A stretch of DNA of 64,000 bases from Microbulbifer sp. Q7 (lineage in GTDB: Bacteria; Pseudomonadota; Gammaproteobacteria; Pseudomonadales; Cellvibrionaceae). This document shows, in pieces, positions 19,398 to 62,409 of the stretch; position 1 is the stretch's first letter, and each line of letters begins with the position of its first letter. Under the pieces are notes generated by a model. The model was not told the DNA's origin. It was given only the letters and a program-made list of their open reading frames with translations, and made no database searches. The stretch lies in the NCBI RefSeq assembly GCF_001639145.1, contig NZ_LROY01000002.1:2326501-2390500 (forward strand), given 5' to 3'. The position numbers were made by a program, and so were the translations under genes.

Positions 19398-22223
<2,826 letters not shown>

Positions 22224-22274
22224 ACCCCAGACGCCGACGCTGATACCGAAGCGACACTACACCCGGGAACTTCA

Positions 22275-23501
22275 ATGAAAAAAATAAACCCTTCCCTCAG
22301 TATCGGCCCGGCGACCATGGTCGCCGCCGCGTTTATCGGGCCGGGCACGGTCATCACTGCCAGCCTGGCCGGTGCCCAGTACGGTTATGCGCTGCTGTGG
22401 GCGCTGCTGTTTGCCATTCTCGCGAGCATCATTTTGCAGGAAATGGCCGCGCGCCTCGGCGTGGTTACCGGCGCTGGGCTGGGGGAAAACATTCGCCAGT
22501 TTCTCCGCCACCCACTGCTGCGCTGGCCCGCCCTGGGCCTGGTGATTGGCGCGATCGTGATCGGCAACGCCGCGTACGAAGGCGGTAACCTGGCCGGCGC
22601 CAGCCTCGGCCTGAAGCTGCTCACCGATACTGAGCTGGCCGCGGGCACGACCTCCCTGTGGCCCATGGTGGTCGCCGCCCTCGCCGCCGCCCTGTTGTGG
22701 AGCGGCAACTACCGCCTTATCGAGCGCGTCCTCATCGTGCTGGTGGCGCTGATGAGCCTCGCGTTTCTGCTCACTTTTATCCTCACCCGCCCGGATCTGT
22801 CGGCGCTGTTTCGAGGCCTGCTGACCCCGTCCGTACCCAGTGGTGCGGCACTCACCGTCATCGCACTGATCGGCACCACGGTGGTGCCCTATAACCTGTT
22901 TTTACACAGCTCCAGTGCCAGTAAAAAATGGCACTCCGCCGACGACTTGCCGGCGGCGCGCCGGGATATCTTTTTCTCGATTCCCGTGGGCGGGTTGATT
23001 TCCATTGCCATTGTGTCCACCAGTGCCGCCGCATTTTTCAGCCACCAGCTGAGCATCGCCAGTGCCGGGGATATGGCACAGGCGCTGCAGCCGCTGTTTG
23101 GCAAATCCGCGGTGTACTGCATGGGCATTGGCCTGTTCGCCGCGGGCATTTCTTCTGCGCTGACCGCGCCGCTGGCATCGGCCTACGCACTGAGCGGCGT
23201 GCTGGGCAAACCGGCGGATCTCAACGCACTGCAGTTTCGCACCATCTGGCTCAGTATCATCGTGATCGGTGCCCTGCTGGCGACCCAGGACATCCGCCCC
23301 ATCCGTCTGATCTGGTTTGCGCAAATTGCCAACGGCCTGCTGCTGCCGATCGTCACTCTGTTTTTACTGTGGGCCATGAATACCCACGCACTGGGTGAGC
23401 ACCGCAACAACTGGTGGCAGAACCTGCTGGGGCTAGTGGTTCTAATGATTGCCGTTGCCCTGGGAGGGCGCAGCCTGGCTTCGGCATTTGGCTGGTTGTG
23501 A
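22275..23501 (+). CDS. Nramp-fold transporter lacking metal-site residues (YcsG-like), candidate 5-oxoproline importer
   Basis: A 408-residue inner-membrane protein with about eleven helices and clear Nramp-family architecture. In true Nramp metal carriers helix 1 carries DPGN and helix 6 carries MPH. Here helix 1 reads GPGT (residues 22-25) and helix 6 reads VPY (204-206), so every side chain that coordinates Mn/Fe appears replaced. The protein is therefore unlikely to be MntH. Immediately downstream are pxpA, pxpB and pxpC, and in Bacillus the Nramp-like YcsG also sits with these genes. I infer that it imports 5-oxoproline or a related small acid; this is not established. It starts 52 bases after uvrA. 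Confidence 0.75.
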   Translation: MKKINPSLSIGPATMVAAAFIGPGTVITASLAGAQYGYALLWALLFAILASIILQEMAARLGVVTGAGLGENIRQFLRHPLLRWPALGLVIGAIVIGNAAYEGGNLAGASLGLKLLTDTELAAGTTSLWPMVVAALAAALLWSGNYRLIERVLIVLVALMSLAFLLTFILTRPDLSALFRGLLTPSVPSGAALTVIALIGTTVVPYNLFLHSSSASKKWHSADDLPAARRDIFFSIPVGGLISIAIVSTSAAAFFSHQLSIASAGDMAQALQPLFGKSAVYCMGIGLFAAGISSALTAPLASAYALSGVLGKPADLNALQFRTIWLSIIVIGALLATQDIRPIRLIWFAQIANGLLLPIVTLFLLWAMNTHALGEHRNNWWQNLLGLVVLMIAVALGGRSLASAFGWL

Positions 23502-23544
23502 ACACTCGACAGAAACCCGCAAGAGAAACGCGCAAGAGAAAAGA

Positions 23545-24324
23545 ATGATGCATTCCGGCACAACCTCCCCCGCGGTCGCAATCGATATCAATTGCGACCT
23601 GGGCGAAGGCAATAACGAGGACGATTGCGCGCGTGACGCGCGACTGATGCGCTATATCTCCCGCTGCAATATCGCCTGCGGTGGCCATGCGGGTAATGCG
23701 ACAACCATGTCGCTGTCGTTGCAAAATGCGCGCAAAGCCGGCATTGCCGCCGGCGCACACCCGGGTTACCCGGATCGTGAGAACTTCGGCCGCTCAACCC
23801 TCGCGCTGCCCAGGGAGGAATTACTCCACTCTGTGTACGAACAAATACATGACCTGCAGGCAATTGCTGCAGTGGAGCAAGTGCCGCTCACCCATATCAA
23901 GCTGCACGGCGCTCTGTACAATGACGCGGAAGCCGATGATCGCCTCGCGGAAGATCTGGTGGGATTGATCGCGCAGGCCTTCCCCGGATTAACCATACTT
24001 GGGCTGGCCAACGGGGCCATGGAACGCGCGGCCAAAAAATACCGGCAACCGTTGTTGCGCGAAGGATTTATGGATCGCCGCTACCTCAACGACCACCAAC
24101 TTGCGCCCCGCAGCATGCCCGGTGCGGTTATCGAGGATTTTACCCAGTGCCTGAAGCAGGTTACGGCCCTCGCCACCGGCCAGCCCTTTACCGGCATCGA
24201 GGAGCACCCGCTTCAGTTCTCCGTGGACAGCCTCTGCCTGCATGGCGACAACCCCCAGGCGGAATCCATCGCACAAGCGCTACATCACGCATTGCTCAGA
24301 GCAGGTATCACCCTATGCCGCTAG
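23545..24324 (+). CDS. pxpA: 5-oxoprolinase subunit PxpA (LamB/YcsF family)
   Basis: PxpA works with PxpB and PxpC in ATP-dependent opening of 5-oxoproline (pyroglutamate) to glutamate, removing a spontaneous by-product of glutamine. The 259-residue product shows the family landmarks: IDINCDLGEG at the start, NIACGGHAGNA, AHPGYPDRENFGR, and KLHGALYN. The frame is open 32 codons upstream inside the transporter gene; the ATG chosen follows an AGAG-rich stretch and matches the family start. It overlaps pxpB by 10 bases. Confidence 0.92.
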   Translation: MMHSGTTSPAVAIDINCDLGEGNNEDDCARDARLMRYISRCNIACGGHAGNATTMSLSLQNARKAGIAAGAHPGYPDRENFGRSTLALPREELLHSVYEQIHDLQAIAAVEQVPLTHIKLHGALYNDAEADDRLAEDLVGLIAQAFPGLTILGLANGAMERAAKKYRQPLLREGFMDRRYLNDHQLAPRSMPGAVIEDFTQCLKQVTALATGQPFTGIEEHPLQFSVDSLCLHGDNPQAESIAQALHHALLRAGITLCR

Positions 24325-25085
24325 ACCCACGCTTTACCATTTCCGCAAATGGCGATGCCGCTCTGGATATTCGCTTTGCAGAGGAACCGGGTCAGCAACT
24401 GAGTGAATCCATCATCGCTCTCGCCGAATCCATCGAGGCCGCCGCATTGCCTGCGGTCACTGAGCTGGTGCCCGCCTATCAGTGTCTTACCGTGTGTTTC
24501 GATCCGTTGCAGCTGCCCGATTCCGGGACAGGGCGGCCGGACACATCGGAACTGGAGCAAGTGCTCGGAATGCTCGCACAGAGCCCGGCGGTCCAGCAGC
24601 CAACAGCGGAGCGCGAGCACTACCTGATTCAGATACCGGTGTGTTACGACGCGGCATTTGCGCTGGACATGCAAGCCCTGAGCGCACATTCCGGGCTCAC
24701 CCCGGACGATATTATTGCCCGGCATACCGCACCGCAGTACCTGGTGCATATGCTCGGATTTACCCCGGGGTTTCTCTACCTGGGCGGGCTCGACACCCGG
24801 CTGCATTGCCCGCGCAAGGCGCGTCCGGCACTCAGCGTACCCGCGGGATCGGTGGGCATCGGCGGAGCCCAGACCGGGATATATCCCCAGGCCACCCCCG
24901 GCGGTTGGCAGATCATCGGGCGCACGCCACTCGCCCTGTTTCAGCCGGAGCGGGACTTCCCGTTTGTCGCCCGGCCCCTGGACAGGATTCAATTTGTGGC
25001 CATCAGCGCGGAGGAATTCCAACACACGGAGCCTGATTGCGTTCCGCAAAAAATGCCCGTTGCAGACGTGGAGAAAAATCAATGA
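24315..25085 (+). CDS. pxpB: 5-oxoprolinase subunit PxpB (KipI family)
   Basis: The second subunit of prokaryotic 5-oxoprolinase, of the allophanate-hydrolase subunit 1 fold. The 256-residue product has YQCLTVCFDP in the first half and the family block MLGFTPGFLYLGGLD, then PRKARPALSVPAGSVGIGG and QTGIYP. In Bacillus the homologue KipI also inhibits the sporulation kinase KinA, but no such kinase exists here, so the oxoprolinase role is preferred. It overlaps pxpA upstream and pxpC downstream (ATGA), indicating translational coupling of all three. Confidence 0.92.
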   Translation: MPLDPRFTISANGDAALDIRFAEEPGQQLSESIIALAESIEAAALPAVTELVPAYQCLTVCFDPLQLPDSGTGRPDTSELEQVLGMLAQSPAVQQPTAEREHYLIQIPVCYDAAFALDMQALSAHSGLTPDDIIARHTAPQYLVHMLGFTPGFLYLGGLDTRLHCPRKARPALSVPAGSVGIGGAQTGIYPQATPGGWQIIGRTPLALFQPERDFPFVARPLDRIQFVAISAEEFQHTEPDCVPQKMPVADVEKNQ

Positions 25086-26014
25086 GCCTGCGTATCATCA
25101 AGCCAGGCCTGCAGACCACTATTCAGGACGGTGGACGGCCCGGCAACCTGCGCTGGGGGCTCTCCCGTGGCGGCGCCGGCGATACCTTCGCCATGGCTCT
25201 GGGCAACTTGCTGCTGGGCAATTCACCCAAGCATCCATGCCTCGAGGTCGCCATCACCGGCCCGGAAATCGAATTCTCCGCGGCGACCTCCGTCGCCGTT
25301 ACCGGCGCCCGTTTTGATCTGGCGCACAACGACAGGCCGGCGAACAACGACGAAGTACTGCAAATGCGACCAGGTGACCGGCTACGCTTCGGGCCCCTCA
25401 GGTCTGGCGCCCGCGCATATATCACGCTTGCCGCCGATTTCCAGTTGGCGCCCACCCTCGACAGTCTATCCACCCACGTGATCGCCGGTTTCGGCGGATG
25501 GCAGGGGCGGGCGCTCAAGGCCGGTGACCAGATCCCGTTGCAACACTGCCGCACCGTGCCAACCCGGGCGCTTCCCGCCCAGTACCGCCTCGACTACGGA
25601 TCACGGCCGCTGCTGCGGGTCGTGCCTGGGCTCGAGTCGCCCTACTTTACCGGTGATGCCAAGACGCGGTTCTATGCCGGTGGTTTCACGGTATCGCCCC
25701 AGAGCAACCGTATGGGTATCCGCCTGGCAGGAGAACCCTTGCCCACGGAAACACTCCCGCAACAGGTTTCCGCGGCACTCTGCCCCGGTACCGTACAGGT
25801 GCCACCCAACGGCCTGCCCATTATCAGTTTTGTGGAGGGGCAGACCATCGGCGGTTACCCGCGCATCGCCCATGTCATCAGTTCGGACCTCCATCGCCTC
25901 GCCCAACTGCCGGCCAGCGCACGACTGGATTTCGAGCAAGTCGAGCAGGCCACCGCCCACCAGATTCTGAGAGAAAAGTCGCGCCTGCTAGCGGACCTTC
26001 CCGGCTTGCTGTGA
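25082..26014 (+). CDS. pxpC: 5-oxoprolinase subunit PxpC (KipA family)
   Basis: The third subunit of 5-oxoprolinase, with the allophanate-hydrolase subunit 2 (biotin-dependent carboxyltransferase-like) fold. The 310-residue product starts IIKPGLQTTIQDGGRPG, continues with LSRGGAGDTFAMALGN, and carries SPQSNRMGIRLAGEPL and QVPPNGLPIISFVEGQTIGGYPRIAHV, all family hallmarks. It ends the transporter-pxpABC unit. No transcription factor gene accompanies the cluster. Confidence 0.93.
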   Translation: MSLRIIKPGLQTTIQDGGRPGNLRWGLSRGGAGDTFAMALGNLLLGNSPKHPCLEVAITGPEIEFSAATSVAVTGARFDLAHNDRPANNDEVLQMRPGDRLRFGPLRSGARAYITLAADFQLAPTLDSLSTHVIAGFGGWQGRALKAGDQIPLQHCRTVPTRALPAQYRLDYGSRPLLRVVPGLESPYFTGDAKTRFYAGGFTVSPQSNRMGIRLAGEPLPTETLPQQVSAALCPGTVQVPPNGLPIISFVEGQTIGGYPRIAHVISSDLHRLAQLPASARLDFEQVEQATAHQILREKSRLLADLPGLL

Positions 26015-26242
26015 ACGTTCCAGTGGCGACCACCGCCTCCCAATCTGCAAGCTCGCGTTAACGACGCCACCAGTTCACAGTTGGTCCGCGTCGATCAACG
26101 GCACCCGGTATTTGGCGCGCGGTCCCCTTCCCGAGCGCAACAGCTTTCGCTAACTTCTCACCCCGCAAATGACAACGCTGTCACCCTGTCAAGCAGTTGC
26201 ATTGGCGCACAACAAATAACAATAAATGAAATTGGAGAAGAC

Positions 26243-28291
26243 ATGTCTCATCAGTCATGGCCCGTCAGGGCCCATATGGAATCGCATCACCCCCGGGTCA
26301 ACCCCAGAAAGCCGCTCCAGAGGTCCCTGGGTGCCACCCTGTGCGCGTTGCTACTCTGGCCAGCCTTGGCACAGGCCAACCCTCCTGCCGCGCCCTACGA
26401 GGCCGGACAGAGCTATGCTGGCGGGAGTGAGGTCTGCTTCCAGCGGGACCTGTTCCGCGCACAGTGGTGGGCCGGGCCGAGCGACTCGCCAGAGGCCGCC
26501 TATACCGCCGCCAACAGTTGGGATAGCCCCTGGCTTCTTCAGGACCCAGGAGTCTGCGCGACAGACACCGGCAATCTGGCCCCGGTTGCCCGGGCCATTG
26601 CCAACCCGAAAGAGGTCACCGGTGCCGCCAGCATCGCACTCGACGGCAGCCTGTCCTCCGATCCGGAAGACGATCCCCTCACCTTCCAGTGGACTCAGAT
26701 TGCCCCGCCATCGCCACAGGCCAGTATCCTCAACCCCAATAGCAGCGGCACCCAGGTGGACCTGCCACCGGTGGAGGCCGATACCGGGTATGAATTCCGC
26801 CTGAGCGTCGCGGATGCCGAGCACACGGCCTACGCCACGGTTGCCGTGCTACAGCGCGCCGAGACAGATACCACGCCGCTGCCGACCATTGTGCTCACCG
26901 CCCCCACCAGCACCACTGCCTGCCCGGGCAGTATCACCCTCAGTGCGGCGGACTCCAGCTATCCCGACGGCGCGAGCTACGTGTTCCAATGGCGACAGCT
27001 GAGCGGCCCAAGCGCTGAGATCATCACACCGGATGCAGACACAACAGCGGTGAATCTCCCCGACATTGGCACTGGTGTTGCCTACGAATTCGCGTTCGAG
27101 GTGACGAATGGCGAGATCAGCATGAACGAGTCCGTGACCGTGCAACAAGAGTGCAGTAACGGTGGCTTCAGCATCCCACTCACTACACTGACAACTCGGG
27201 AAGCCGAACTGACGTCCAGTGCGCTATTCACCCAGGTAAAAGCTTCGATCGTCACGCTGGATAATCCGCAGGTGGAAGCGGTAGTGCCGGGCAGAATTCA
27301 AAACCCCGCCAATGTTCGCCGCGTGGAGTCGATCATCAGCGACGCGGACTGGAGTTTCCTGTTTCCGGTGCGCGCGGTGGAATACTCATACACCAATTTC
27401 CTGCGCGCGGTAGCAAAGTTCCCCGCTTTCTGCGGCAACTACAGCGACGGCCGCAACGCCGAAGCCATCTGTCGAAAATCGCTGGCGACGATGTTCGCCC
27501 ACTTCACCCAGGAAACCGGTGGGCATTCCCCGCACTGGGCAGAGCCTGAATGGCGCCAGGGGTTGTACTTCATTCGCGAGCAGGGATGGAGCGAGGGGAC
27601 GCCCAATGGCTACGGCGTGTGTGATCCGTCCACCTGGCAGGCGCAGCAATGGCCCTGTGCCACCTTTGCCGACGGCAGCTACAAAAGCTATTTCGGGCGC
27701 GGCGCAAAGCAGCTGAGTTACAACTACAACTACGGTCCCTTTTCTGCCGCTATGTTCGGCGATGTGGAGGTACTGCTTCAGGAGCCGAAGCTGGTGGCCG
27801 ACACCTGGCTGAACCTGGCCAGTGCGGTGTTTTTCTTTGTCTATCCACAGCCGCCCAAGCCCAGCATGCTCCACGTTATTGATGGCACCTGGCAGCCCAA
27901 TAGCCAGGACCTGAACAGTGGCCTGGTACCCGGGTTTGGCGTTACCACCATGATCATCAATGGCGGGATTGAATGCGGCGGCAGCAGCGAACACGCACAA
28001 TCGCAAAACCGCATTGACTATTACCGCAACTTCGCCGAATTCCTGAGTGTCCCGCTACCCGCCAACGAAGTACTGGGCTGTGCGAGTATGGGCCGGTTCG
28101 CAGTGGGTGGGGCCGGCGCCATGGAGATCTACTGGGAACAGGACTGGAGCTGGGACCCGCAATATCCCAATGGCGAAAGTTATGCCTGCAAACTGGTGGG
28201 CTACCAGACACGCTTTTCCGCCTTTATCGAAGGTGACTATGTCCGTTGTGTAGAACACTTTTTCGACGTGGACATTGACTACAACCGCTAG
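26243..28291 (+). CDS. Secreted GH19 chitinase with CBM5/12-like and PKD-like domains
   Basis: A 682-residue exported enzyme expected to hydrolyse chitin by the inverting GH19 mechanism. A long signal peptide ends near residue 45 (ALAQA). Next come a CBM5/12-like module (about 50-110, with RAQWW and SPWLL) and two PKD/Ig-like domains (about 118-215 and 225-310). The GH19 domain follows from about 325. Catalytic acid Glu424 lies in TQETGG and Glu446 in FIREQ, 22 residues apart as in barley Glu67/Glu89. The motif GRGAKQLSYNYNYG is also present. The last 60 residues are Trp/Tyr-rich with two Cys and unassigned. ATG follows GGAGAA; the open frame upstream of it is not supported. Confidence 0.9.
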   Translation: MSHQSWPVRAHMESHHPRVNPRKPLQRSLGATLCALLLWPALAQANPPAAPYEAGQSYAGGSEVCFQRDLFRAQWWAGPSDSPEAAYTAANSWDSPWLLQDPGVCATDTGNLAPVARAIANPKEVTGAASIALDGSLSSDPEDDPLTFQWTQIAPPSPQASILNPNSSGTQVDLPPVEADTGYEFRLSVADAEHTAYATVAVLQRAETDTTPLPTIVLTAPTSTTACPGSITLSAADSSYPDGASYVFQWRQLSGPSAEIITPDADTTAVNLPDIGTGVAYEFAFEVTNGEISMNESVTVQQECSNGGFSIPLTTLTTREAELTSSALFTQVKASIVTLDNPQVEAVVPGRIQNPANVRRVESIISDADWSFLFPVRAVEYSYTNFLRAVAKFPAFCGNYSDGRNAEAICRKSLATMFAHFTQETGGHSPHWAEPEWRQGLYFIREQGWSEGTPNGYGVCDPSTWQAQQWPCATFADGSYKSYFGRGAKQLSYNYNYGPFSAAMFGDVEVLLQEPKLVADTWLNLASAVFFFVYPQPPKPSMLHVIDGTWQPNSQDLNSGLVPGFGVTTMIINGGIECGGSSEHAQSQNRIDYYRNFAEFLSVPLPANEVLGCASMGRFAVGGAGAMEIYWEQDWSWDPQYPNGESYACKLVGYQTRFSAFIEGDYVRCVEHFFDVDIDYNR

Positions 28292-60214: not shown

Positions 60215-60290
60215 TGGCAGGCCAGGAGGGACTCGAACCCCCAACAGCCGGTTTTGGAGACCGGTGCTCTACCAATTGAACTACTGGCCT
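60215..60290 (-). tRNA. trpT: tRNA-Trp (anticodon CCA)
   Basis: A 76-nt cloverleaf with an encoded CCA end. The anticodon loop reads CTCCAAA within a CCGGT/ACCGG stem, giving CCA for UGG codons. It lies between tuf copy 2 and secE, with its own promoter. Confidence 0.97.
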
Positions 60291-60343
60291 GAAACACCCG
60301 GATACATGACACACATGTCAGTACCGGAAAAAACGAGGGGCGG

Positions 60344-60371
60344 ATCATACCACCAACCCCAACGTTTGCAA
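60344..60371 (-). promoter_or_regulatory. tRNA-Trp promoter
   Basis: Minus-strand -35 TTGCAA (60366-60371) and -10 TATGAT (60344-60349), 16-base spacer, about 54 bases before the tRNA; it may also serve secE-nusG. Confidence 0.75.
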
Positions 60372-60415
60372 GCGTGACCACCAATTCGCACTGGCGGCCA
60401 CCCTTGATACAACGA

Positions 60416-61639
60416 TTACTCGATGATCTTGGCTACAACGCCAGCACCAACGGTACGGCCACCTTCACGGATCGCGAAGCGCAGACCTTCTTCCATGGCG
60501 ATCGGGCAGATCAGAGTCACAGACATCTGAATGTTGTCGCCCGGCATTACCATTTCAGTACCTTCCGGCAGCTCAACCGCACCAGTTACGTCGGTGGTAC
60601 GGAAGTAGAACTGCGGACGGTAGCCTTTGAAGAACGGGGTGTGACGACCACCTTCGTCCTTGGACAGGATGTACACCTCACCTTCGAACTTGGTGTGCGG
60701 GGTGATGGAGCCCGGCTTCGCCAGGACCTGACCACGCTCAACTTCGTCACGCTTGGTGCCACGCAGCAGCGCACCGATGTTCTCACCAGCACGGCCTTCG
60801 TCCAGCAGCTTGCGGAACATCTCAACACCGGTACAGGTGGTCTTGGTGGTGTCTTTGATACCAACGATTTCGATTTCGTCGCCAGTATTGATGATGCCAC
60901 GCTCTACACGACCGGTTACTACGGTACCGCGACCAGAGATGGAGAATACGTCTTCGATCGGCATCAGGAACGGCTGATCGATGGCACGCTCCGGCTCCGG
61001 GATGTACTCGTCCAGGGTCTCTACCAGCTTCTTAACTGCAGAGGTGCCCAGCTCGTTGTCGTCTTCGCCGTTCAGGGCCATCAGGGCAGAACCAGCGATG
61101 ATCGGAGTGTCGTCACCCGGGAACTCGTACTGGTCGAGCAGCTCGCGCAGCTCCATTTCAACCAGTTCCAGCATCTCGGTGTATTCTTCAGAGCCTACGC
61201 CGCCGCAGTCTTCTGCCAGCAGGTCAGCCTTGTTCAGGAATACCACGATGTAAGGTACACCCACCTGACGAGACAGCAGGATGTGCTCGCGAGTCTGCGG
61301 CATAGGACCGTCGGTCGCGCCACATACCAGGATAGCGCCGTCCATCTGAGCAGCACCGGTGATCATGTTCTTCACGTAGTCGGCGTGTCCCGGGCAGTCT
61401 ACGTGCGCGTAGTGACGGGTCGGGGACTCGTATTCCACGTGAGAGGTGGCGATGGTGATACCACGCTCACGCTCTTCCGGAGCATTGTCGATACCGTCGA
61501 AGGCAACGGCAGCGCCGCCCCACACTTCGGAACATACGCGAGTCAGCGCACCGGTCAGGGTGGTTTTACCGTGGTCAACGTGACCGATGGTGCCCACGTT
61601 TACGTGGGGCTTGGAACGTTCAAACTTTTCTTTTCCCAT
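60416..61639 (-). CDS. tuf: Elongation factor Tu, copy 2
   Basis: The second EF-Tu gene, encoding 407 residues. I see one amino-acid difference from copy 1: residue 30, just after the [11 protein letters not shown] loop, is Gly instead of Ala. Two silent changes lie near 60626 and 60649. Flanking sequence diverges at once, so homogeneity is confined to the gene, as expected from gene conversion. The ATG follows GGGAGG at six bases; the frame runs 97 codons further up through the tRNA-Thr gene, which cannot be coding. It is the last gene of the tRNA-tuf transcript. Confidence 0.98.
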
Positions 61640-61800
61640 TGCGGGCCTCCCAATATAAGCGTGAGCCGAACTAGCGACTTTACCCAAGAACAGCTCCCGC
61701 CAGGAACCTGCCCGGGAACCAATGCACCCAGACCCGCCCAAAGGCAAAAAAGCCGGATACAAATAACCGCGGAGACACAGGTCACCGCGGCTACGAATAA

Positions 61801-61876
61801 TGGAGCTCATGGGCGGATTTGAACCGCCGACCTCACCCTTACCAAGGGTGTGCTCTACCCCTGAGCTACATGAGCT
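61801..61876 (-). tRNA. thrT: tRNA-Thr (anticodon GGT)
   Basis: A 76-nt tRNA with encoded CCA; the anticodon loop TTGGTAA gives GGT, reading ACC/ACU. It is the tRNA nearest tuf, the same order as E. coli thrU-tyrU-glyT-thrT-tufB. Confidence 0.97.
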
Positions 61877-61985
61877 TACTCCAGTGCCAGCAGCTTGCTG
61901 CCGACGCAGGCGGGGCCGCCTGCTTTGCACTCAACCCAGGGCCGAATGACTTCCTACCAAACTAACCGGGCTCCACACATGCGAA

Positions 61986-62059
<74 letters not shown>

Positions 62060-62140
62060 GAACCGCGTGCGAAAACCTCCACGATAGAAGACCAAACAAC
62101 TTCTTCTACCTTCGATGCCAGCACACAGGCATCTGAATAA

Positions 62141-62224
62141 TGGTGCAGGGGGGTGGATTCGAACCACCGAAGCTTGCGCGTCAGATTTACAGTCTGATCC
62201 CTTTGGCCACTCGGGAACCCCTGC
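62141..62224 (-). tRNA. tyrU: tRNA-Tyr (anticodon GTA)
   Basis: An 84-nt class II tRNA with a long variable arm and encoded CCA. The anticodon loop CTGTAAA gives GTA. Confidence 0.97.
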
Positions 62225-62333
62225 TCGAAAGCGGTGCGTATTTTCTACAGCAACCTCTTCGATGTCAACATTTTTTCTTTCAAATTCACATACTTACCTG
62301 AAATTCTTCAAAAGCACATGAAGCGAGAAAGAA

Positions 62334-62409
62334 TGGAGCTGGCGAGAGGAGTCGAACCCCCGACCGGCTGATTACAAGTCAGCTGCTCTACCAACTGAGC
62401 TACGCCAGC
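62334..62409 (-). tRNA. thrU: tRNA-Thr (anticodon TGT)
   Basis: A 76-nt tRNA with encoded CCA; anticodon TGT in the loop CTTGTAA, reading ACA/ACG. It is the first gene of the tRNA-tuf transcript. Confidence 0.97.

Follow-up and report, generated by a model that had tools for sequence, protein, structure and literature searches.

An Nramp-fold clade lacking the metal ligands is linked to two kinds of 5-oxoprolinase and is a candidate family of 5-oxoproline importers

The 64,000-nucleotide stretch of Microbulbifer sp. Q7 DNA analysed here (contig NZ_LROY01000002.1, positions 2,326,501 to 2,390,500; hereafter the window) carries on its forward strand a gene for a 408-residue Nramp-family protein (22275..23501), followed by pxpA, pxpB and pxpC, the genes of the prokaryotic 5-oxoprolinase PxpABC. 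This carrier belongs to a clade, here called B1, whose members, judging from their sequences and gene neighborhoods, are probably LeuT-fold secondary carriers of the Nramp superfamily that have lost the cation site and import 5-oxoproline (pyroglutamate). The predicted fold, the lost metal ligands and a clade-wide linkage to two kinds of oxoprolinase form the basis of this proposal, and it is from these that we infer the substrate itself. Ligand-less Nramp-fold carriers for 5-oxoproline are known: the general idea has already been published for another branch of the family, B2 (PMC13274462), for which PMC10448178 argues for manganese (Mn) instead (these two sources, like PMC5050338 and PMC12873925 below, are drawn on in part). 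What is new is B1, a clade for which we found no characterised member and which pairs with either of two kinds of 5-oxoprolinase.

Loss of the metal site

The sole Pfam match of the carrier is to PF01566 (Nramp; 306.9 bits against a cut-off of 29.8), and the protein is predicted to adopt the LeuT-type Nramp fold. Helix 1 reads GPGT (residues 22-25) and helix 6 reads VPY (residues 204-206), confirming what the original prediction, made from the letters of the window alone, had picked out. Canonical metal Nramps are described by the motifs DxxN in helix 1 and A/CxxM in helix 6, and the NRMT Mg2+ transporters by DxxG and TxxA/T (PMC8806188). The carrier has neither pattern, with GPGT in helix 1, TxxV in helix 6 and a Tyr that replaces the His of canonical MntH, and it falls short of the canonical MntH models NF001923 (172 vs 430 bits) and TIGR01197 (109.9 vs 272.5).

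The same prediction had read these changes as a loss of the metal ligands, a view that was borne out and can now be extended to helix 3. Across B1 the sites of E134, M230 and H232 of DraNramp are Asn (N105 in the carrier), Val and Tyr in 125 of 125 proteins, while the Gly and Thr at the helix-1 sites hold by definition, since B1 membership was taken from GPGT; VGY stands in place of VPY in three of the 125 (L298-L300, from haloarchaea). N105, Y206, Q350 and N353 of the carrier are invariant across the clade. Canonical MntH and DraNramp, in contrast to the GPGT, VPY and Asn of B1, combine DPGN and MPH with a helix-3 Glu, and MntH rows (themselves defined by DPGN) keep the Met and His in 68 of 68 cases. 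NRMT-like rows, named after the Mg2+ transporter NRMT (7qia), were labelled by DAGx in helix 1 and are not a single clade on the trees; all 17 of them retain the Glu of helix 3, whereas B1 lacks both the helix-1 and the helix-3 acids.

Three further ligand-less PF01566 proteins (L162, L169 and L276) have GPGA or GPGS in helix 1 and Asn in helix 3. Besides B1, the largest non-canonical class in the genome survey described below is DPSG/SPY (45 rows including variants), no member of which lies beside either 5-oxoprolinase.

Linkage to pxpABC

In the window, the genes for 5-oxoprolinase subunits A (the LamB/YcsF protein), B and C are pxpA (23545..24324, +; start at ATG 23545 or 23548), pxpB (24315..25085, +; ATG 24315) and pxpC (25082..26014, +; ATG 25082). 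PxpA matches PF03746 (261.5 bits), the subfamily model NF003814 (236.6 bits, cut-off 226) and NF003816 (214.6, cut-off 213), PxpB matches PF02682 (228.5 bits) and TIGR00370 (188.1 bits, cut-off 145.55), and PxpC matches PF02626 (260.7 bits) and the domain-level model TIGR00724 (234.7 bits, cut-off 230.2). Matches to the stricter equivalog models lie below cut-off, namely NF003812, NF003813 and NF003815 for PxpA and NF045499 for PxpC (236.1 bits, cut-off 500). The original prediction had the pxp genes follow the carrier directly and overlap one another, which stands for the pxp genes (10 nucleotides between pxpA and pxpB, 4 between pxpB and pxpC) but not for the carrier, whose stop is separated from pxpA by a 43-nucleotide gap. 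PF01566 and PF03746 each match once in the source genome, in both cases at this locus, and the nearest relatives of the carrier are from Microbulbifer (88-90% identity over the carrier). Because the order carrier-pxpA-pxpB-pxpC recurs together with GPGT and VPY in Pseudomonadota, Balneolota and Bacteroidota, the arrangement goes beyond chance.

To survey genes not picked by linkage, 299 Pseudomonadota and 198 Bacteroidota genomes were searched with PF01566, and stretches were fetched around 72 and 40 lower-scoring rows, respectively. For Pseudomonadota these were all the lower-scoring rows listed besides the window's own (matches listed down to 186 bits), and for Bacteroidota they were picked by score from a longer listing before the positions of pxpA were known. 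Of 77 canonical-scoring rows 38 were examined, 30 of them with flanks of ~1.5 kb and outside the Fisher test. Links were called within 4 kb using profiles built from the proteins of the window and of L044; since L139 and L181 overlap, the tally of non-B1 rows holds two proteins in duplicate. Whether GPGT/VPY members are consistently linked to pxpABC was the check proposed with the original prediction, and among the 31 B1 genes with long flanks (window excluded) 18 lie beside pxpABC, 4 beside a HyuA/HyuB-type gene (see below) and 9 beside neither, with pxpA present elsewhere in the genome in 9 of these 9. In total 22 of 31 B1 genes are linked. Among other Nramp-family genes, those linked to either enzyme number 1 of 89 where the flanks are long (Fisher p 7e-16 for this comparison, uncorrected for relatedness) and 0 of 62 where they are short.

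Outside the survey, peptide patterns of the window protein led to its nearest loci, and the best 80 of 164 all have GPGT and VPY; in 59 of these 80 the carrier is followed by pxpA-pxpB-pxpC, in 2 by pxpA and then the contig end, and in 19 by none of the three. The whole set of 125 B1 proteins (1 from the window + 80 + 10 + 21 + 9 + 4 plasmid-collection rows) includes nine Bacteroidota loci (L279-L287) that were fetched for an adjacent pxpA and stand outside the survey test. Over this set 89 genes lie beside pxp genes, 12 beside HyuA/B and 24 beside neither. The genomes of the 24 unlinked genes have pxpA elsewhere in 17 cases and a fused HyuAB frame elsewhere in 1 (21 of 24 checked). For ten unlinked B1 genes some of the neighbours show conservation within a family, and none was recognised by eye as related to 5-oxoproline.

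A congener, G121, has pxpABC after a 941-residue open reading frame (ORF) of the same length and first residues as the one preceding the carrier in the window, and where the window has the carrier it has a 200-residue ORF without a Pfam family (L278:8248-11369). PF01566 matches nothing in the G121 genome, so this congener does not need an Nramp protein for Mn. An Rfam scan found no Mn riboswitch or other match by the window operon. On these two grounds we rejected the notion that the genus relies on the carrier for Mn import.

A second oxoprolinase type beside B1 carriers

Among the best 80 of 164 loci, 6 of the 19 that lack pxp genes adjoin a HyuA-HyuB protein, of ~1,200 residues where whole, with the Pfam domains PF05378, PF01968 and PF02538 (four scanned; the neighbours checked against Pfam were those of L024, L030, L044, L079 and the L298 pair). 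This domain order is that of the eukaryotic-type 5-oxoprolinase, and the PxpABC and HyuA/HyuB enzymes have no Pfam family in common. In the full B1 set the 12 HyuA/B-linked cases (of 125) comprise 10 fused proteins, one cut by a contig end, and 2 that are split, in haloarchaea; loci differ in whether the gene precedes or follows the carrier, and 6 of the 12 show a 4-nucleotide overlap. Split HyuA and HyuB come directly after a carrier with GPGT and VGY in Haloferax mediterranei and Haladaptatus. At one haloarchaeal locus a gene of the Asp/Glu racemase family comes after HyuB.

Of the 11 B1 genomes found among the Pseudomonadota, three (G087, G255 and G269) have a fused HyuAB next to the carrier and do not figure among the 124 genomes with pxpA, and the remaining eight, the window's included, all have pxpA. 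Among the matches listed, 70 of the 299 genomes have a frame of at least 1,150 residues that matches PF02538. On a quick B1 tree of 72 rows parsimony requires at least four switches between pxpABC and HyuAB. The Parvularculaceae locus L079 (HyuAB), for example, shares one fully supported group with L061 (pxp), and L153 (HyuAB) pairs closely with L151 (pxp). The pxpABC and eukaryotic-type enzymes act in common on 5-oxoproline (PMC13274462), and the simplest reason for a carrier being kept while the enzyme type changes is this shared substrate.

The same evidence bears on an alternative in which the carrier moves a related small molecule that the enzymes would open, such as a hydantoin-like lactam, 5-oxo-D-proline or a short pyroglutamyl compound. 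The HyuA and HyuB families also include hydantoinases and a caprolactamase, and the haloarchaeal racemase-family gene would fit a D-form; on the other hand, 5-oxoproline is what the two enzyme types have in common (PMC13274462), and close relatives switch between them. We regard such a related substrate as unlikely, though worth keeping in view, and favour 5-oxoproline.

The closest PDB chain to the HyuAB protein is of 1,288 residues and was named N-methylhydantoinase by its depositors. A literature search covering few subscription journals found no paper tying a PF01566 carrier to HyuAB/OPLAH-type genes. The DctP6 and DctP7 tripartite ATP-independent periplasmic (TRAP)-type receptors of Bordetella pertussis, which belong to an unrelated transporter class, serve 5-oxoproline uptake near a eukaryotic-type 5-oxoprolinase gene (PMC13274462). 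In genome G122 an EVGS/SPY-type Nramp relative (L172:8932-10152) has a HyuA/HyuB-type gene within 4 kb, and the same contig also carries pxpA at distances of ~11 kb and ~23 kb.

Relationship to YcsG, PxpT and MumT

On a careful tree of 68 rows, with three long rows left out, B1 (support 100/99) and B2 (100/100) are separate clades, and proteins in which Gly occupies the site of the helix-1 Asp group at 96/93 with one change of state; a quick tree with the three long rows kept gave 92 for the helix-1-Gly branch. The 60 B1 proteins that were aligned with the window protein are 46-90% identical to it, and PDB chain 9a52_A (title YCSG-FABL, taken as YcsG of Bacillus subtilis) is 19-20% identical. 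PDB sequence searches with the B2 proteins of L316 and L318 found no YcsG entry. The E-values of TIGR01197 are 1e-28 to 1e-31 for the window protein and only 3e-4 for L288 of B2, and the Corynebacterium glutamicum genome was matched by PF01566 and not by TIGR01197 at 1e-8. L288, a pxpA locus fetched as a contrast, encodes a very divergent PF01566 protein with GPGF in helix 1 and GGY in helix 6. PxpT of C. glutamicum is 50% identical to YcsG and the two therefore go together (PMC13274462); from the identity of 9a52_A, the TIGR01197 result and gene order we infer that both belong to B2. That the window carrier is a YcsG/PxpT orthologue was rejected given the 19-20% identity, the silence of C. 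glutamicum for TIGR01197 and the separation of the two clades. The original prediction had cited YcsG as a parallel, and this remains apt in that PxpT and YcsG (MntG) are, like B1, PF01566 carriers encoded with pxpABC, but they sit on a separate branch.

C. glutamicum needs PxpT, described as closest to the NRAMP family, for growth on 5-oxoproline, a result on growth rather than uptake whose authors do not exclude metal transport, and YcsG is cited in the same paper as required for 5-oxoproline growth (PMC13274462, 2026). YcsG has also been argued to be a Mn importer, MntG, with a 5-oxoproline effect that could be polar (PMC10448178, 2023), and deletion of mumT in Acinetobacter baumannii lowers cellular Mn, MumT being published as a Mn importer (PMC5050338, 2016). 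A preprint places MntG in ‘G-motif 3’ and, in the part drawn on here, describes the Nramp-related groups besides it and the NRMT-like group as entirely uncharacterized (PMC12873925). A carrier working outwards, to release surplus 5-oxoproline or glutamate, or one working as an exchanger, is conceivable inasmuch as 5-oxoproline arises spontaneously in cells (PMC13274462). However, an exporter need not travel with the enzymes that consume its substrate, and growth on external 5-oxoproline depends on PxpT, a member of the other branch (PMC13274462), and we give this option next to no credence beside import.

MumT is, like the window carrier, a ligand-less PF01566 protein encoded beside pxpA. It falls in B2, is 24% identical to the window protein and has GPGF in helix 1 and GGY in helix 6, and its operon also encodes a D-glutamate cyclase and a biotin carboxylase. 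In A. baumannii (L316:6959-13163) a LysR-like ORF (by eye) comes first, with genes for the carrier, PxpA, a PF07286 D-glutamate cyclase, a fused PxpB-PxpC and the biotin carboxylase, an order that fits the published mumR, mumT-L-U-H-C (PMC5050338). Similar sets, with a B2 carrier beside pxpA and a D-glutamate cyclase homologue, are found on a Klebsiella plasmid and a L. plantarum plasmid (L317 and L318), and the L288 protein matches 168 plasmid records, 93 of them from Klebsiella. Across the 299 Pseudomonadota genomes B2 occurs in 10, within 3 kb of pxpA in 7 of these (a count that omits three weak matches, to B1 genes in G000, G224 and G234). The cyclase was seen in 4 of 6 B2 loci (one being the query itself) versus 0 of 124 B1 loci, and the two operon types therefore differ. 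Since D-glutamate cyclase makes 5-oxo-D-proline, the mum operon can be read as a 5-oxoproline operon; by its genes it looks like a 5-oxoproline/D-glutamate operon, and its MumT has not one of the metal ligands known from Nramp proteins. The Mn data speak against this view, as does the need for mumC in the use of urea as a nitrogen source (PMC5050338).

These Mn phenotypes of MumT and YcsG (PMC5050338, PMC10448178), together with the Nramp fold and a score above cut-off for the broad family model NF037982, could be taken to mean that the window carrier is still a divalent metal importer (Mn2+/Mg2+), supplying the 5-oxoprolinase or nitrogen metabolism. The phenotypes concern the other branch, at ~20-26% identity, the metal-site positions are changed throughout B1, including a helix-3 acid kept by most acidic groups, and congener G121 is without any PF01566 match. 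We consider metal import by B1 quite improbable and 5-oxoproline import the better account.

Proposed function and its weighing

Under the 5-oxoproline proposal, the carrier would bring external 5-oxoproline into the cytoplasm, where PxpABC, with ATP, would open it to glutamate. APC amino-acid carriers bind the carboxylate through backbone amides at the helix-1 turn, and the GPG turn of helix 1 may do likewise, with N105, Y206, Q350 and N353 possibly lining the substrate site. Named hosts of B1 are mostly marine or halophilic, on which ground uptake might be driven by an ion gradient, perhaps of Na+. The notion that this branch of the Nramp fold carries 5-oxoproline or another small acid rather than a metal, with which the original prediction ended, is supported comparatively, by the linkage and by the helix-3 Asn throughout B1, rather than biochemically.

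Several observations weigh against this proposal. The broad model NF037982 (Nramp family divalent metal transporter) scores 96.6 bits on the carrier, against a cut-off of 50. Those 24 of the 125 B1 genes do not adjoin an oxoprolinase gene, and the genomes of L047, L063 and L075 were found to have no pxpA and no whole fused HyuAB, only split or partial HyuB. Moreover, pxpA occurs in 124 of the 299 Pseudomonadota genomes and B1 in at least 11, meaning that most pxpABC operons are without B1, and the enzyme does not need the carrier, as G121 has pxpABC without it. The four HyuAB proteins scanned gave no match to an NCBIfam 5-oxoprolinase model and a caprolactamase score below cut-off, and HyuAB proteins in general could act on hydantoins or other lactams. 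Finally, B2 has genuine Mn phenotypes, for which an indirect effect would have to account.

A broader reading, which we regard as evenly balanced between right and wrong, would join the two branches: an organic-substrate limb of PF01566 would have lost the helix-1 acid once, and its deep branches B1 (bacteria and haloarchaea, with either 5-oxoprolinase kind) and B2 (MumT, probably with YcsG and PxpT) would both serve 5-oxoproline. On this reading MntG and MumT would affect Mn indirectly, via 5-oxoproline and glutamate metabolism, and the mum operon would be for 5-oxoproline/D-glutamate rather than urea and Mn.

The annotated records that we opened label these carrier genes divalent metal transporters. 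If 5-oxoproline import is correct, the substrate of an entire limb of the Nramp superfamily is a small organic acid. This would show how, in the LeuT fold, a site for metal and an amino-acid-like one can take each other's place, and it would mean a further route of 5-oxoproline uptake for Gammaproteobacteria, Alphaproteobacteria, Bacteroidota and haloarchaea. It would also offer a sharp way to settle the published conflict between Mn and 5-oxoproline for YcsG/MntG and MumT, the cleanest clade for such a test being B1, with its switches between two kinds of 5-oxoprolinase.

Genomic surroundings

The carrier is preceded by a 51-nucleotide gap (22224..22274, +) in which a sigma-70 consensus scan found no promoter-like site and which has no Rfam match. 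The 941-residue upstream ORF (19398..22223, +) was given no family call; we take it to be uvrA. Downstream of pxpC, positions 26081-28291 of the window encode a GH19 chitinase-like protein with PKD-type domains, and a cluster of five tRNA genes lies at 60218-62409 on the reverse strand.

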